Source: Gammaproteobacteria bacterium
Lineage (GTDB): Bacteria; Pseudomonadota; Gammaproteobacteria; Pseudomonadales; Azotimanducaceae
Direction of reading: 5' to 3'
DNA: 38,116 bases
Assembly (NCBI GenBank): GCA_002725285.1
Contig: PBRC01000056.1
Coordinates: 1 to 38,116, forward strand
Shown here one piece after another: positions 23,973 through 36,447 of this stretch; the stretch's first letter is position 1, and every line of letters begins with the position of its first letter. The notes beneath the pieces were generated by a model. It was not told the origin of the DNA, did not search any database, and saw only the letters and a program-made list of their open reading frames with translations. The position numbers and the translations under genes were made by a program.

Positions 23973-25136
23973 GTGATGAGCGTCTTAAGCGACCATATAT
24001 TTCCCCGATTTACTATCCTCCGCCTGCTGGCACTGAGTGGTGTATTGTTTGCCTCGTCGGCTATCGCCAACGAGCTTGTACAGCTTGGTGAGGCCCTGTT
24101 TTTCGATACCAACCTCTCCGCCAATCGAACCCAGGCATGTGCATCCTGCCATGATCCTGCAGCGGCATTCAGCGATAGCCGCGACAACGGTATATCAGGT
24201 GCAGTTTCGTTGGGGGATGATGGAGAGTCTCTTGGCGACCGCAATGCACCAACCATCACATATGCGATGCTCATTCCGGTGTTTGGTCGGGACACTCACG
24301 GTGAAATTGCTGGCGGCACTTTCCATGATGGACGTGCAGCCAGCATGTTGGAACAGGCGGGGCAACCCTTTACCAACCCGATCGAGATGGCCCTGTCGGA
24401 TAAGGGTGCAGTTGTTAAACGGGTGCACGAGAATCCGGCCCACGCGGATGCATTGAAACAGCATTTCGGCGAGACGATTTTTGACGACACGGTTAAGGCG
24501 TTTGCAGCAATCACCGAGAGCATCGTGGCATTTGAACAGATGCCGCAGTTTGCGCCGTTTGATTCAAAATATGATCGTTACCTGCGCGGTGAATACAAGT
24601 TATCGAAGCAGGAGGAAGTTGGTCGGAAGCTCTTCTTTTCACAGCTTTTTAATTGTCACAGCTGTCATTTGATAGACACCCGGGAAGACCAGGAATATGA
24701 GGCATTCAGTAATCATCGCTATCACAACATTGGTTTGCCGGTGAACGCTGCTGTTCGGCAAGAGAATGGACTCGGCTCCGCGCATGTGGACCAGGGGCTG
24801 CTTGAAAACCCTGACATTGACGACCCGCTGCAGGCTGGCAAGTTCAGAGTACCAACCTTGCGAAACGTGGCTGTGACGGGACCGTATATGCACAATGGAA
24901 TCTTCAGGGATCTCAGAACCGTTGTGCTTTATTACAATAAGTTCACGCTAAGCAACGCCGAGAGCCAGACAAATCCGGAAACCGGGCAACCCTGGGGTGA
25001 GTCGGAAGTCCCGGATACCGTTAATTTGGATTTACTCTCGCAGGGACAGCCGATTTCAGCCCTGCAGGTTGGAGCAATTGTGGAATTTCTCAATGCATTA
25101 ACCGATCAGCGATATGAAGGGCTGATCGACCAGTAA
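23973..25136 (+). CDS. Di-heme cytochrome c peroxidase (MauG/CcpA family)
   Basis: 387 aa; CASCHD and CHSCH heme motifs, LGEALFFDTNLSANRTQACASCHDPAAAFSD, FRVPTLRNVAVTGPYMHNG. Confidence 0.93.
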   Translation: MMSVLSDHIFPRFTILRLLALSGVLFASSAIANELVQLGEALFFDTNLSANRTQACASCHDPAAAFSDSRDNGISGAVSLGDDGESLGDRNAPTITYAMLIPVFGRDTHGEIAGGTFHDGRAASMLEQAGQPFTNPIEMALSDKGAVVKRVHENPAHADALKQHFGETIFDDTVKAFAAITESIVAFEQMPQFAPFDSKYDRYLRGEYKLSKQEEVGRKLFFSQLFNCHSCHLIDTREDQEYEAFSNHRYHNIGLPVNAAVRQENGLGSAHVDQGLLENPDIDDPLQAGKFRVPTLRNVAVTGPYMHNGIFRDLRTVVLYYNKFTLSNAESQTNPETGQPWGESEVPDTVNLDLLSQGQPISALQVGAIVEFLNALTDQRYEGLIDQ

Positions 25137-25358
25137 CCGCATATCACCAGCTGGATCTAAGAATTTGAGATGAAATACAAAGGCAGCTCTCTTAGCATTT
25201 ATGAAGCTGGTAATCAGAAGAAATGTATTCGATCACCGGCAATCAAGAACCACGGTAAACCGATACTCGCATCAGGACAACAGGGGCATGCCGGCTAAAT
25301 GCGGCTCTGCAGTAATATCAAGAAGGGGGTATGATGTTGTGAAAATAGGTGGGTGCTT

Positions 25359-26894
25359 ATGTCGAAGTTAAAGGTCTTTTTACTTTCATTTGTTGGTTTA
25401 GTAGTGGCTGTCGGCCTTGCCGCTCTATATTTCTGGGAAACTGGTAACCTGGATATGTATGTGCCGATGTTCGCGGCAAATTGTGGCGAGTGTCACGGTA
25501 GTGACCTGAGAGGTTCTGAAACTGCTACTGCATTGATCGAAACGAACCTGGAGTACGGTGATACTGTCGCTGATCTGATTGCGAGTATTAAGAATCGCCA
25601 TGATGGTACAGGTAGTCCAGATTTTGAATCCACATTAAGTCGACAGCAAATAAAAGGCCTTTCTATCTATATTGCAGAACGCAGACTGGGCCAGCGTTTT
25701 ACGGATTTTCGATTCGATACCGAGGTGGTTGTTCAGGAGCAACCGTTGCAGTCAGAGGAACATTTGTTCCGCATTGAGCTGTTTGCTGACAATCTCGACC
25801 CCATGGCGTTTTGTATAGAACCGATGCGCGATGGATCTCTTCTTTTGACCGAAAGGGAACGAGGGCTTTCTATCATTTCCCCTGACGGGATTCAGTCTGA
25901 GTTGATCAGCGGCACGCCACAGACTGGTGATTCGTTGGATATTATGGGGATTAAATACGGGACTGGCTGGTTGCTGGATATTGCCAAACACCCAAACTAT
26001 GAAAACAATAACTGGCTCTATCTGCACTATACGGATTTGTGTCCGACGGATTGCGTGGACAGCGAGCCGCTGGATACCTCGATGAACCGGCTCGACCGTG
26101 GGCGAATTAAAGACGGTGAATGGGTGGAGGTAGAAACGATCTGGCAAACGGACCCAGCCTGGTACACGAGCCGTGCTGATACCGGTGCGGGTGGCAGGAT
26201 CGCTTTTGATGACTCTGGTCATGTTTATATCAGTGTTGGTATGCGCGATGCTTATGGACCACAGGATATGAATAACCCGTCCGGCAAGATCCATCGGGTG
26301 AATGACGATGGAACAGTCCCTGCGGATAATCCCTTTGTCGTCAGTACTGGCAATTCTCCTGACGAACTGCCATTTACCCAACAGACGATCTGGACCTACG
26401 GCCACCGCAGTCCTCAGGGGCTGGAGTGGAACTACAAGCAGCGTAGCGTCTGGAATACGGAGATGGGACCAAGAGGTGGGGATGAAATCAATGAGCTGCT
26501 GGCGGGCAGGAACTATGGCTGGCCGTATTTTTCCCTCGGACTTGAGTACTCCGGCGGGGATGTCGAACGTCACAAGCCAAGAAATATTGAATTTGATACT
26601 TCGACGATTGAACAGACCCTGGTTGACATTACACCATCGCCAGCGATATCGAGCTTTGCATTTTACAATCATGATCGATTCGCCCACTGGAAAGACAATC
26701 TTCTATTGGGCTCCTTGAAGGGGAGTTCCCTGTTTCGCTATGTCTTTGACGGAAACAAGGTAGTGCATAAGGAAACATTGATTAAAGACCTGGCGAGGAT
26801 TCGTGACGTCGAGATTGGCTATGACGGATTTGTGTATCTGCTGCTGGAGGTCAAAAACGGTAGCAAGATTGTAAGGCTGGTACCTGTCGCCTGA
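25359..26894 (+). CDS. Membrane-anchored c-heme / PQQ-dependent sugar dehydrogenase-like (glucose/sorbosone dehydrogenase) fusion
   Basis: N-terminal TM, CGECHG heme motif, then sorbosone/sGDH propeller (HPNYENNNWLYLHY, GGRIAFDDSGHVYISVG, GHRSPQGLEWN, RGGDEINELLAGRNYGWP). Confidence 0.9.
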   Translation: MSKLKVFLLSFVGLVVAVGLAALYFWETGNLDMYVPMFAANCGECHGSDLRGSETATALIETNLEYGDTVADLIASIKNRHDGTGSPDFESTLSRQQIKGLSIYIAERRLGQRFTDFRFDTEVVVQEQPLQSEEHLFRIELFADNLDPMAFCIEPMRDGSLLLTERERGLSIISPDGIQSELISGTPQTGDSLDIMGIKYGTGWLLDIAKHPNYENNNWLYLHYTDLCPTDCVDSEPLDTSMNRLDRGRIKDGEWVEVETIWQTDPAWYTSRADTGAGGRIAFDDSGHVYISVGMRDAYGPQDMNNPSGKIHRVNDDGTVPADNPFVVSTGNSPDELPFTQQTIWTYGHRSPQGLEWNYKQRSVWNTEMGPRGGDEINELLAGRNYGWPYFSLGLEYSGGDVERHKPRNIEFDTSTIEQTLVDITPSPAISSFAFYNHDRFAHWKDNLLLGSLKGSSLFRYVFDGNKVVHKETLIKDLARIRDVEIGYDGFVYLLLEVKNGSKIVRLVPVA

Positions 26895-30807: not shown

Positions 30808-32490
30808 ATGATGAAGAATTTAAGCGTACGTGTTGGGTTGTTAGCCGCAATCCTTGCAGCTGCACCCGTAAGTGCAGGTGTCGTGACAGGCCAGGTCAAA
30901 GATGTAGACGGTAATCCCATGACTGGTGTCATGGTCAGGCTGACCAGTAAAGACAATGTATCTGAATCAGTTTTTACTAATGCCAGCGGCGAGTATGAGA
31001 TCAAAACCGACCTCGCAGGTGACATTAGCGTGCGTCTGCGCTTACCCTATTATCGAGATGTCAATACTTCGATCGAGTTGGGTGCAACGGCCACTATTGA
31101 GGAAAATATGGTCATGGAAGCGATGACTGGCGAAAGAGAAATTTCTGATAGCCTGCCCGCTGCCTACCACTTTGGTCAGTTGCCATTCGAAGAAGGTGAC
31201 GACAAGGATTTTAATCGCTACCAGTTTCAACGTGACTGTCTTTCCTGCCATCAAATGGGTAATTCATTCACTCGAGTACCTCGTACCGCCAAGAATTGGA
31301 CAGGTACCGTGAAACGCATGCACATGTATATCGGCAACTTCGACGATAAGCTCATTGACCGAAGGTCTGAAATTTTTGCGGAGGGTTTTGATGGCAAACC
31401 TCTGACAGTTCGACCGGAGTTTCCTGTAGACGAGAAAGCACTATCGACGGCTAAGATTTATGAATACCCTTTGCTGACGCAGGGCGTGCCTCATGACACC
31501 ATCGCACACCCCAAGACGGGGATGCTCTATACTGTTGATCAGGCATTGCATCATATGTCGGTTACCGATCCAAAGTCTGGTGTAAGTGAATATGTCGTCC
31601 AGAACGGATCTCAAGCTGACTACTACTACACCACCTCACCCTCCGAAGGGAAGACTGAGAAGTTTGAACCCAAAACAGATGGACCCCACTCATTAGCATT
31701 AGGTCATGATGGAAAGTACTATGTCACCAATACAGGTAGTACCAGCATTGGTATTTTCAATCCCAATACCAACGAGTGGGAACCTTCTCACAAGCTGCCT
31801 GATGCATACAAAGGTCGATATCCTCATACGATTCGTGTCGCCAAGTCAGGTATGGTGTGGTTTACAATGGCCGGTGCAGAACATGTAGGTCAGCTTGATC
31901 CTGTCTCTGGAAAATTCGATATCATCCCGTTGCCCAAAGTCAAGGCCGGGGGTATTTCTGGTGGTACACAACCCTATGGTATTGACATCAGTCCAACTGA
32001 TGACGCCATGTGGTACGGGCGTTTATTCGGTGACAAAATTGGCCGAGTTGATCCGGATACACTTCATGTCACAGAGTTTAATTCGCCAGTTCGTGGACCA
32101 CGCAGAATGTACTTCGATAACAAAGGAATTCTATGGGTAACAGGGTATTCCGAAGGAAAATTGGCACGCATTGATGTTAATGACTGGTTTCACAGTAAGG
32201 TCTACGATATGCCTGAGTTTGCTCCGGGTTACCGTCCCGCACCCTATGCGCTGGCGATACATCCAGAGACACAGGATATATGGCTGAATGAAAATATGAC
32301 CGACCGCTTGTATCGCTTCATTCAGGATGAAGAGCGGTTTGTTGTCTACCCGGTGCCCTTGTCAAATACTTATACGCGAGATACGAGCTTCACACCGGAT
32401 GGGAAAATCTGTACCTCAAATAATCCATTACCCGCTGCATCGCTTGAGGGGGGTGTATTACAGATCTTCTGCATCGATACCGATGCTTAG
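30808..32490 (+). CDS. Periplasmic carboxypeptidase-regulatory-like + mono-heme c + Vgb/NHL-type beta-propeller protein
   Basis: 560 aa; RBS aggaggtt; signal peptide; GVVTGQVKDVDGNPMTGVMVRLTSKDN...SGEYEI; DCLSCHQMGNSF; PHDTIAHPKTGMLYTVDQ, PHSLALGHDGKYYVTNTGSTSIGIFNP, PYGIDISPTDDAMWYGRLFGDKIGRVDPDT, GPRRMYFDNKGILWVTGYSEGKLARID. Confidence 0.85.
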   Translation: MMKNLSVRVGLLAAILAAAPVSAGVVTGQVKDVDGNPMTGVMVRLTSKDNVSESVFTNASGEYEIKTDLAGDISVRLRLPYYRDVNTSIELGATATIEENMVMEAMTGEREISDSLPAAYHFGQLPFEEGDDKDFNRYQFQRDCLSCHQMGNSFTRVPRTAKNWTGTVKRMHMYIGNFDDKLIDRRSEIFAEGFDGKPLTVRPEFPVDEKALSTAKIYEYPLLTQGVPHDTIAHPKTGMLYTVDQALHHMSVTDPKSGVSEYVVQNGSQADYYYTTSPSEGKTEKFEPKTDGPHSLALGHDGKYYVTNTGSTSIGIFNPNTNEWEPSHKLPDAYKGRYPHTIRVAKSGMVWFTMAGAEHVGQLDPVSGKFDIIPLPKVKAGGISGGTQPYGIDISPTDDAMWYGRLFGDKIGRVDPDTLHVTEFNSPVRGPRRMYFDNKGILWVTGYSEGKLARIDVNDWFHSKVYDMPEFAPGYRPAPYALAIHPETQDIWLNENMTDRLYRFIQDEERFVVYPVPLSNTYTRDTSFTPDGKICTSNNPLPAASLEGGVLQIFCIDTDA

Positions 32491-32549
32491 GTAGACGTTT
32501 TCGGGTAGCAGTTCTGAGATTATCCTGGATTTGCTACTCGTGATTTTTA

Positions 32550-32948
32550 ATGTCAAACAAGTTCAATTTAGCTGTCAGTCTGATCGGCGTCGTAGCTGGG
32601 CTGTCAACAGCTTGTGCGTCAGCTTCAGAAATAAGGGCTGCCATACTAAAGGAGTACGAGGCCATTGTGGGACAAGCCTTTTCTGCAGACTCCGGGAAGC
32701 AGTTTTGGTATCAAGACAATAACGGCCGAAGCTGCACTACCTGTCACACAGAATCCCTGCTGGCAAAAGGTAGGCATGAGCGAACGGGTAAGATAATTGA
32801 ACCCATGGCACCATCAGTTAATCCTAAGAGACTGACCAAGCGCAAGAAAATCAATAAGTGGTTTCTTCGTAACTGCAAATGGACAATCGGACGTGAGTGC
32901 ACAATCCAGGAAAAAGGCGATATCCTGCTGTGGTTAAGTGAACAGTAA
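32550..32948 (+). CDS. SHP-type (sphaeroides heme protein; DUF1924) mono-heme cytochrome c
   Basis: 132 aa with signal peptide; NNGRSCTTCHTESLLAKGRHERTGKIIEPMAPSVNPKRLT...WFLRNCKWTIGRECTIQEKGDILLWL. Confidence 0.82.
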   Translation: MSNKFNLAVSLIGVVAGLSTACASASEIRAAILKEYEAIVGQAFSADSGKQFWYQDNNGRSCTTCHTESLLAKGRHERTGKIIEPMAPSVNPKRLTKRKKINKWFLRNCKWTIGRECTIQEKGDILLWLSEQ

Positions 32949-32977
32949 CTTCTACTAAACAGTGGTGGGCGAATAGG

Positions 32978-33565
32978 ATGAATACCAAGTCAAGAAAAGC
33001 TGCTGGAAAATTATTATGGTTCCCCTCGCTGGCACTTTCGCTTGTAGTCAGTGTTTCGGGCCAGGAAATACGTTATCCCGGGGATCGTAGTAACTACGAC
33101 AACAAGATGCCGCCCGTCTTTGAAACAGATCCGGTTTATATTGAAGAGTGTGCCTCGTGTCACCTGGGATACGCGCCAGGATTATTACCTGAGAAAAGCT
33201 GGCAGAAAATTCTTCAGGGGCTCGAAGATCACTTTGGAGAAAATGCAGAACTCGATTCAGAGTCTGTGAATCATCTTGCAGATTACCTAGAGAAAAACTC
33301 TCTGGAATATGAGAAATCAGACCGGATTGCCAAGTTCAAGAAGAATCTACCCAGCGATCCACCCATTCGGATTACGGAACTACCCGCGTTTATTGTGGAA
33401 CACCAGCCAGCTGTCAGGCAAATCGGTCTTGAAGAAGTAGAAGACGGTTTCTTCAGCCCCTGTGAGGATTGTCACAAACAAGGAGCAAGCGGAATTTTCG
33501 ACAAAGAAAGATTATACAAAGGCTACGGTCCCGACTTTCAGTTTGGAGAGAAGAAGGACTTTTAA
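32978..33565 (+). CDS. DHC-type di-heme cytochrome c, copy 1
   Basis: 195 aa; YIEECASCHLGYAPGLLPEKSWQKILQGLEDHFGENAELD...DPPIRITELPAFIVEH...FFSPCEDCHKQGASGIF. Confidence 0.87.
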   Translation: MNTKSRKAAGKLLWFPSLALSLVVSVSGQEIRYPGDRSNYDNKMPPVFETDPVYIEECASCHLGYAPGLLPEKSWQKILQGLEDHFGENAELDSESVNHLADYLEKNSLEYEKSDRIAKFKKNLPSDPPIRITELPAFIVEHQPAVRQIGLEEVEDGFFSPCEDCHKQGASGIFDKERLYKGYGPDFQFGEKKDF

Positions 33566-33567
33566 TA

Positions 33568-34143
33568 ATGCCGCGTTGGTTACACATCAGTTTATTCTTT
33601 TATCTAACCGCCAACTGTACTCTATATTGCGTTGCCGCTGAAAAGTCAGTAGCCGCATCGACCAAGATTGACGCAGGCAACCCAGCTGAGCTATTTACCA
33701 AAGATGATTCCTACATCGACGAGTGCGGTACTTGCCATATAGCCTATCCTCCGATGTTACTACCGGCAAAGAGCTGGCTTAAGCTGATGTCGGGAATTGA
33801 GAATCACTTCCAGGAAAATGCCGAACTCGATGCTGAAACTTCCGCACATATCAGTGAGTATCTTACGCAGAATTCTATGGATACTGTGAGCGATTCAACC
33901 GTTAGCCACTGGTTAACGTCAGTCCCAACTGATCCGCCCATTCGAATAACCGAGTTACCGGCCTTTATCACTGACCACGAGGATGCATACAGTCGGATGG
34001 GTGAGAGCGCCAAAGAGGCCGGCTTCTTTAGTCCCTGTAGAGACTGTCACAAAGAAGCGAACGATGGGATTTTCAGCAAAGACAGGTTGTTCAGGGGGTT
34101 TCGGCATGTATTCGATCGTTTCTCCGATAAGGAAGAACCATAA
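33568..34143 (+). CDS. DHC-type di-heme cytochrome c, copy 2
   Basis: 191 aa from MPRWLHISLF (internal to track ORF 33469-34143); YIDECGTCHIAYPPMLLPAKSWLKLMSGIENHFQENAELD...DPPIRITELPAFITDH...FFSPCRDCHKEANDGIF. Confidence 0.87.
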   Translation: MPRWLHISLFFYLTANCTLYCVAAEKSVAASTKIDAGNPAELFTKDDSYIDECGTCHIAYPPMLLPAKSWLKLMSGIENHFQENAELDAETSAHISEYLTQNSMDTVSDSTVSHWLTSVPTDPPIRITELPAFITDHEDAYSRMGESAKEAGFFSPCRDCHKEANDGIFSKDRLFRGFRHVFDRFSDKEEP

Positions 34144-34554: not shown

Positions 34555-36447
34555 CTAATCAGACATGGCCAGATCCATTACCGCTCGATGTGCCTGACCA
34601 ATGGCGGCTTCGCTCATGGCGTTGGCACCTGCATCTGAATTGGCGATCGCTATGCGCCCGAACGGTCGACGGGCGACAACCCAGGGCGCTCTGGCAAGCG
34701 GCACCTCATCGAGCATGTACGCTACGTCTCCTGTTTCAGGATCTTGGCCAAACGCATAACCATGGGGCCATCGATTCACGGTGATAGCTTCGATGTCCCT
34801 TGCCGGATCAAAGCCGCCCGGTGACAGGATTCGACCGAGCTGGTTGCGAATGTTTCTCTCAAAGGTTTCAAATGTGGTCGTGAGCAGATCATTACGTCCC
34901 GCTTTCCACTGTTCCTGAGCTGTCAGGCCAGGGGCAAGTGGCGTGCGATACATATTTACTATCGTTGGTTGGTCGGGCGATCTGGCGTGATGATAGTCAC
35001 CGATACTCATCGGTGTGCTCAGACGGACAGAGTTAAAATAACAACCAGGACAATGCACCCTGTTAACACCCAGGTTTGCAAATGCACGCCAGTTTCGAAT
35101 CATTACGCTGGTATAAACCAACGGTGCTTTTAGAGACTGGGAGAGGGCCAGTTTCTGTTCTGCCGGAAGTTCTTCACATAGATAAGGAATCACCGAGTGG
35201 TAACAGGCGAGCACAGTCTGGCCCGCGCGTACACGATGTGCTCGACCATCTCGCACATAAGTGATCTCAACTTCCTGGGCTGTCTCTGGATCACCGATAT
35301 GGCGCACACCGACAACGGTACTCTCAAGGCGAATACGAACGGCTGAATCTCTGTCGTCGAGCTGCCCGTAATCAAAACGTGCTGATACGACGTCCTCCAT
35401 ACCGATGCCGGGAGCTGCGGCTGGAATCATCGAGCGTACCAGCAGGCGTGCAATCGAAGCATTGCCGTCCGGGAATCGAAAATATAGTCGTTCCTTGGCC
35501 TCTGTTCCGAACCCGAGACCTTTTGTTCCTGGCGCCCCATCTCCGGTTGCCGTCCAGGCTGATAAGGCATCAATTCCGATAGCCCAGTAGCCATCTTTCT
35601 GTAAGATTGCCAAAGACTCAGGATTGATGCCAACCAGATCAACCAGGAAATTCTGGTAACTCATATGGCGCAGACGTTCGCGCTTTTCATCGAGAGTCAA
35701 ACCGGCCAGGTAGTCCACTTCTGTCTCATACAGTCGGGCGATGTCTTCCCTGGCAACCTCAGTAAGCGGTGTCTTTTCAAGGAAGTCACGCCAGGTGGGT
35801 TCACCCGTCCCTGGCACCAGTCGATCCGTACCAAATGTCTCTTCAGCAAAGAAAACGCCGTTGCGAAGACCCATCGAGCGATGGAGGTCCCGATCAATGA
35901 ACTCTGTATAACGTTCTGGGTCAATACCCAGCGACCTGATCATACGTTGCGCTGCCTCGCCATATTGATGAAAGTCCTGAATGTTGATCGTGCCGCCGTG
36001 TGATAAAAGCATCTGATCGCCATGCCAGAACTCGTTGCGCTTGGCATGACCGCCGAAGTCATCGTGATTATCCAAAATCAAAATACGTGCATCCGGCTTG
36101 ATTTCGCGGTAGAACCAGGCGGCCGACAGACCACTTAGACCACCGCCCACGATCACCAGATCGTAGCGCTCAAAGGTATCTTCCACCTTTGAAGAATCCC
36201 ACCGTTTGCCCTGTTGAAGTTGATGTGCGACCTCGAAGGAGCCCGGATGGTTGCCTCGCAGGCCAGTCCGAATCGGTGGATAGGCGACATTTGAATCCCG
36301 CAGTAGCAAAGACGGGGAAGCAGGCATTTCGGTTTCCGACCACGAACATGACATCAGGCTGCCACTCAGAGCCACGCCAATGCCGTTGATAAAATCTCGA
36401 CGGCTAATCGAACGGTTAATACCTAACTTACGATCTCGCTTGTTCAT
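34555..36447 (-). CDS. Tat-exported FAD/NAD(P)-binding oxidoreductase (spermidine-dehydrogenase/amine-oxidase-like)
   Basis: 630 aa; twin-arginine SISRRDFINGIGVALSGSLMSC; DLVIVGGGLSGLSAAWFYREIKPDARILILDNHDDFGGHAKRNEF. Confidence 0.8.
   Translation of the reverse strand: MNKRDRKLGINRSISRRDFINGIGVALSGSLMSCSWSETEMPASPSLLLRDSNVAYPPIRTGLRGNHPGSFEVAHQLQQGKRWDSSKVEDTFERYDLVIVGGGLSGLSAAWFYREIKPDARILILDNHDDFGGHAKRNEFWHGDQMLLSHGGTINIQDFHQYGEAAQRMIRSLGIDPERYTEFIDRDLHRSMGLRNGVFFAEETFGTDRLVPGTGEPTWRDFLEKTPLTEVAREDIARLYETEVDYLAGLTLDEKRERLRHMSYQNFLVDLVGINPESLAILQKDGYWAIGIDALSAWTATGDGAPGTKGLGFGTEAKERLYFRFPDGNASIARLLVRSMIPAAAPGIGMEDVVSARFDYGQLDDRDSAVRIRLESTVVGVRHIGDPETAQEVEITYVRDGRAHRVRAGQTVLACYHSVIPYLCEELPAEQKLALSQSLKAPLVYTSVMIRNWRAFANLGVNRVHCPGCYFNSVRLSTPMSIGDYHHARSPDQPTIVNMYRTPLAPGLTAQEQWKAGRNDLLTTTFETFERNIRNQLGRILSPGGFDPARDIEAITVNRWPHGYAFGQDPETGDVAYMLDEVPLARAPWVVARRPFGRIAIANSDAGANAMSEAAIGQAHRAVMDLAMSD

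Follow-up and report, generated by a model that had tools for sequence, protein, structure and literature searches.

Where does a periplasmic heme cassette that has no cytochrome b beside it obtain its electrons, and what is the role of the heme-carrying propeller that heads it? The question is raised by four + strand genes in the window (the whole stretch of 38,116 nucleotides analyzed here), which is part of contig C62 of the source genome. The genes encode (i) an exported 560-aa heme propeller protein, PROP (30808..32490; defined by ORF, Pfam and AlphaFold2), (ii) SHP (DUF1924/PF09086; 32550..32948), and two diheme cytochromes c of family PF09626, namely (iii) DHC1 (32978..33565) and (iv) DHC2 (33568..34143). 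According to the ORF list, the successive intergenic gaps are 59, 29 and 2 bp, and six CxxCH motifs are present: one each in PROP and SHP, and two in each DHC. The initial annotation had described four tightly packed genes with c-heme motifs, encoding a tri-domain heme propeller, SHP and two DHCs; the coordinates, gaps and motif counts agree with this layout, and Pfam and alignments with solved structures agree with the identities. Judged by eye, all four N-termini look like signal peptides. Since a promoter and terminator scan found fewer sites than in shuffled sequences, it provides no evidence for an operon. A search for anti-phage families gave zero matches. Approximately 4 kb upstream of the cassette (23973-26894) lie genes for a MauG/CCP-like diheme peroxidase and then a protein that combines a sorbosone-dehydrogenase (GSDH) domain with a CxxCH motif; GSDH-type genes adjoin PROP in several relatives. 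An FAD/NAD-binding oxidoreductase with an N-terminal, Tat-signal-like RRDF motif (34555-36447, − strand) forms a pair with another at L025:3815-5764 (+) on one contig (45% mutual identity).

The Pfam match of SHP to DUF1924/PF09086 is strong (8.9e-35; 119.4 bits, cut-off 22.5), and its single CxxCH forms the c-heme site C62-x2-C65-H66. The protein aligned with the solved SHP of R. sphaeroides (1dw0; 2.2e-20), and its W104, N108, C109 and C117, which make up a retained W-x3-N-C-x7-C motif, are spaced like W84, N88, C89 and C97 of that protein. Their roles, with N108 as the putative sixth heme ligand and the two Cys as a putative disulfide pair, are assigned from Meyer et al. 2010 (PMC2909971); all four residues are invariant in an alignment of nine SHPs of the family.

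DHC1 and DHC2 match PF09626 at 2.2e-28 and 1.5e-29, respectively, and DHC1 also matched the solved DHCs 3u99 and 2fw5. On inspection by eye, the N-terminus of DHC1 is like a cleavable signal peptide, and both proteins are probably soluble. Their closest tree partners come from G151, a genome of another family of the order: DHC1 joins the DHC on its contig C1 (91/85), and the sister of DHC2 is a lone DHC on its contig C4 (100/99). Together these four form a clade separate from the DHCs linked to cytochrome b (100/99). This pairing indicates that the two DHC types are older than the split of these gene lineages. The doubling of DHC, noted in the initial annotation, has precedent: Meyer et al. 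2010 (PMC2909971) already described SHP operons containing either one DHC or two. At seven loci of relatives (L018, L040, L042, L043, L044, L055 and L059) a further DHC clade, distinct from the cytochrome b-linked DHCs and from DHC1/DHC2, lies between PROP and cytb-SHP-DHC, encoded on the other strand. The minus-strand DHC adjoining PROP in relatives was considered as the origin of DHC1 and DHC2, and was rejected because the proteins fall into separate clades.

PROP consists of a signal peptide (residues ~1-22, judged by eye), an Ig-like CarboxypepD_reg domain (24-103; Pfam 1.7e-10, AlphaFold2), a helical c-heme domain (~109-213; AlphaFold2) with CLSCH at 144-148, and a Vgb-type propeller (216-557; Pfam Vgb_lyase 3.1e-29, AlphaFold2), which is probably seven-bladed. 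The AlphaFold2 model (mean pLDDT 85, pTM 0.86) has virginiamycin B lyase (Vgb; PDB 2z2o, 2qc5) as its best match among solved structures (TM 0.86-0.89 by lyase length, E ~1e-16), and PROP scores 102.1 bits against PF24684 (cut-off 50). The propeller fold is common to both proteins, but PROP carries the additional Ig-like and c-heme domains, is 17-19% identical to Vgb, and reaches 46 bits with the NCBIfam Vgb models (cut-off 600). Residues H121, H148, M171, H172, H229, H294, H340, Y390, R432, R433, Y480, H485, C535 and C555 are invariant in 25 homologues, and the sixth heme ligand is likely to be M171 or H172. Pro-His, Pro-Tyr or Pro-Arg pairs recur once per blade, in a ring that probably lines the propeller channel. 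H229, H294 and H340 occupy repeat positions, and the register of the alignment with Vgb depends on ring rotation, so that the PROP counterpart of catalytic residues such as His270 of S. aureus Vgb varies with the rotation chosen. PROP also resembles PQQ quinohemoprotein dehydrogenases, as an exported propeller with a c-type heme and similar gene neighbourhoods; it differs from them in giving no PQQ or flavin family match above cut-off in Pfam or NCBIfam (none with PF01011 or PF13360, and 13.7 bits with TIGR03606, cut-off 434.6). In view of this result and of the rotation-dependent register, PROP is filed neither as a lyase nor as a quinoprotein. A second, distant PROP-like protein (31-41% identity) is encoded in the same genome at G000:C10:34431-36140 (L032, L033).

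The initial annotation described the cassette as lacking a b-type cytochrome. This holds at the locus: tblastn with eight SHP-partner cytochromes b as queries revealed none in the window, and genome-wide searches placed no b561-type cytochrome on its contig. It does not hold for the genome, which contains five b561-type genes. One of these (C45:82064-82711) shares 44-66% identity with the cytochromes b that adjoin SHP in eight relatives (30-35% for the next best of the others) and retains the invariant His of the family. It is followed by a third DHC, DHC3 (C45:82934-83491), which by eye is probably membrane-anchored. A single SHP match was found in the genome, in the window, giving an inventory of one intact SHP, three DHCs and one SHP-partner cytochrome b. 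Downstream of the cytb-DHC3 pair, L027:7007-10242 (+; G000:C45:84006-87241) encodes a cytochrome c with two CxxCH motifs, a protein resembling MauG/peroxidases and one of NosD/beta-helix type that contains a c-heme motif.

Analysis of the 222-bp gap between the C45 cytochrome b and DHC3 revealed a remnant of SHP. The gap encodes, in frame and followed by a stop, FGREYSVQGKGDILTGLSQQ, which corresponds to the C-terminal 20 residues of SHP and is 60-70% identical to intact SHPs; a conserved Cys is replaced by Tyr, and the remaining part of the gene is gone. Its best match scored 31.6 bits, and none of 1000 mononucleotide shuffles exceeded 21.6. The position of this stub suggests that C45 most likely once carried a canonical cytb-SHP-DHC operon, from which SHP was subsequently lost. 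The two loci are complementary, C45 being without an intact SHP and the window without a cytochrome b, and as the window SHP is the only intact one, the chain appears to have been split by reciprocal loss. The source genome is a MAG (80 contigs, 3.83 Mb, 92% complete, 4.5% contaminated), and we assume that C45 and C62 come from one organism, which is supported by the similar GC of the two loci (0.488 and 0.492) and by the same split in G151.

Comparison with relatives places this arrangement in context. Other SHP loci of the family read cytb-SHP-DHC, and in an order-wide sample a cytochrome b-like gene adjoins most SHP loci. G218 carries PROP-cytb-SHP-DHC as a single run, all on the + strand and with PROP 42 bp ahead of cytb, which is the order of the window plus the missing gene. 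The closest PROP (71% identity) was found in G151, whose SHP has the same place as that of G465. In G151, C1 carries SHP-DHC without cytb, C4 the lone DHC and C2 cytb-DHC, so that its inventory and manner of split are those of the source genome. An in-frame TAG was considered as a break in the G151 cytochrome b and rejected, the reading frame being full length.

The genes within six positions of PROP at 32 loci were subjected to unsupervised clustering. SHP (13 loci), DHC (13) and cytb (12) ranked first to third among the neighbours, which argues that the adjacency of PROP, SHP and DHC is not due to chance; PQQ dehydrogenases (10 of 32) and a sorbosone-type dehydrogenase cluster, named GSDH by Pfam (5 of 32), came next. 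Seven gene orders, convergent, divergent and co-directional, link PROP with SHP, DHC or cytb. Among 207 genomes of the family, PROP occurs in 30, SHP in 15 and both in 13 (a weak SHP match in G008, 2.3e-4, was left out of the SHP count); PROP is therefore present in 13 of the 15 SHP genomes versus 17 of the 192 others (Fisher p = 7.6e-11, a value that ignores shared ancestry). In the PROP tree, the proteins from SHP genomes group together (3 label changes vs 8.5 in shuffles). The initial assignment of the propeller to the SHP/DHC set is strengthened by this co-occurrence and recurrent linkage, and the concern that the gene order might be conserved in no relative does not apply, although the exact order PROP-SHP-DHC1-DHC2 was seen only in the window. 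Searches of open-access papers for a Vgb-cytochrome protein and for more recent studies of SHP brought up no account of PROP, and a search of plasmids gave no PROP. PROP is apparently a recurrent, hitherto undescribed partner of the SHP chain in related bacteria.

On these observations, the SHP electron-transfer chain is probably split, the cassette providing its periplasmic half together with a conserved partner, the heme propeller, and the cytochrome b acting in trans. In the system proposed by Meyer et al. 2010 (PMC2909971), electrons pass from quinol through CytB and DHCs to SHP, with an operon order of CytB - SHP - DHC (one or two DHCs); the paper describes SHP reduction as demonstrated for R. 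sphaeroides and cites an NO dioxygenase activity of SHP. The source genome has all three components: an intact SHP bearing the Asn-ligand motif, DHCs, and a cytochrome b of the SHP type. It differs in that the cytochrome b is encoded away from the cassette, next to DHC3 and the SHP remnant, and in that a heme propeller heads the cassette; on this protein the background, gene-organisation and discussion sections of PMC2909971 are silent. The same paper reports separate SHP-sDHC and CytB-sDHC operons in Allochromatium vinosum, where, as here, the two sets are apart; in that species a single cluster of 17 genes holds both, along with regulators and genes for heavy-metal transport, whereas in the source genome they lie on different contigs. 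No sensor kinase was seen beside the window cassette or the C45 locus.

The absence of a neighbouring cytochrome b had initially been read as a sign that electrons come from a substrate oxidized by the propeller protein rather than from quinol, i.e. that PROP or a docked dehydrogenase oxidizes a periplasmic substrate and its heme feeds DHC1/DHC2 and then SHP. We consider this unlikely. In its favour, the locus does lack cytb, PROP carries a c-heme as well as an invariant polar ring, PQQ and sorbosone-type dehydrogenase genes are among the frequent neighbours of PROP, and DHC1 and DHC2, with signal peptides that look cleavable, fall into a clade distinct from the cytochrome b-linked DHCs. However, cytb is retained beside SHP at 12 of the 13 SHP-linked PROP loci (the exception being the window), an intact SHP-type cytochrome b with a DHC is present in both the source genome and G151, and PROP matches neither PQQ nor flavin families above cut-off. 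Because the C45 cytochrome b stands beside a DHC and an SHP stub, its absence from the window is no argument against quinol. The initial annotation had foreseen that a cytochrome b elsewhere in the genome might pair with this SHP and these DHCs; the C45 cytochrome b, DHC3 and the SHP remnant go most of the way towards this, and the inventory suggests the pairing in trans.

It is quite unlikely that PROP stands outside the SHP chain and adjoins it by chance or through co-regulation alone, for example as a c-heme partner of PQQ/sorbosone dehydrogenases. The 17 family genomes that have PROP without any SHP indicate that the tie is not obligatory, and, together with the frequent PQQ and sorbosone-type dehydrogenase neighbours, that PROP has a life outside this chain; in addition, 10 of the 12 genomes whose PROP locus is SHP-free contain no SHP anywhere, and a close PROP is absent from the other genus members examined. 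Against this stand the seven gene orders that retain PROP beside SHP, DHC or cytb, the strong co-occurrence in genomes and the grouping of PROPs from SHP genomes in the tree. It is very improbable that the window lacks a cytochrome b only through faulty assembly or binning of a fragmented MAG: 59 uninterrupted bp separate PROP from SHP, and a real rearrangement is favoured by the reciprocal SHP remnant on C45 as well as by the identical split in G151.

In the split chain that we prefer, quinol would reduce the C45 cytochrome b, which would in turn reduce DHC3; electrons would then pass from DHC3 to DHC1 and DHC2, and from these to SHP. Dissociation of the Asn ligand of SHP would allow O2 or NO to be bound and turned over. 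More tentatively, PROP might use its own heme and the PH/PY/PR ring to offer a substrate to the oxygen complex of SHP; alternatively, it might use them to link SHP/DHC with a periplasmic dehydrogenase by electron transfer. Quinol most likely remains the electron source for SHP. On the other hand, the C45 cytb-DHC3 pair could now serve another acceptor.

The oxygen-binding SHP chain itself is already known, though poorly understood, and the new element is PROP. It is conceivable, if doubtful, that PROP is functional in the SHP chain of this bacterial order, governing substrate choice or supplying electrons for the SHP oxygen complex, and that the cassette has become partly independent of cytochrome b in the lineage of the window. 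The reciprocal losses serve as a warning that an accessory gene absent from an operon may still be part of the pathway. With its ligand-binding-type fold, its own heme and seven gene orders shared with SHP, PROP offers a lead to the target of SHP, and if its role in the chain is real, it would be the missing substrate partner of SHP.
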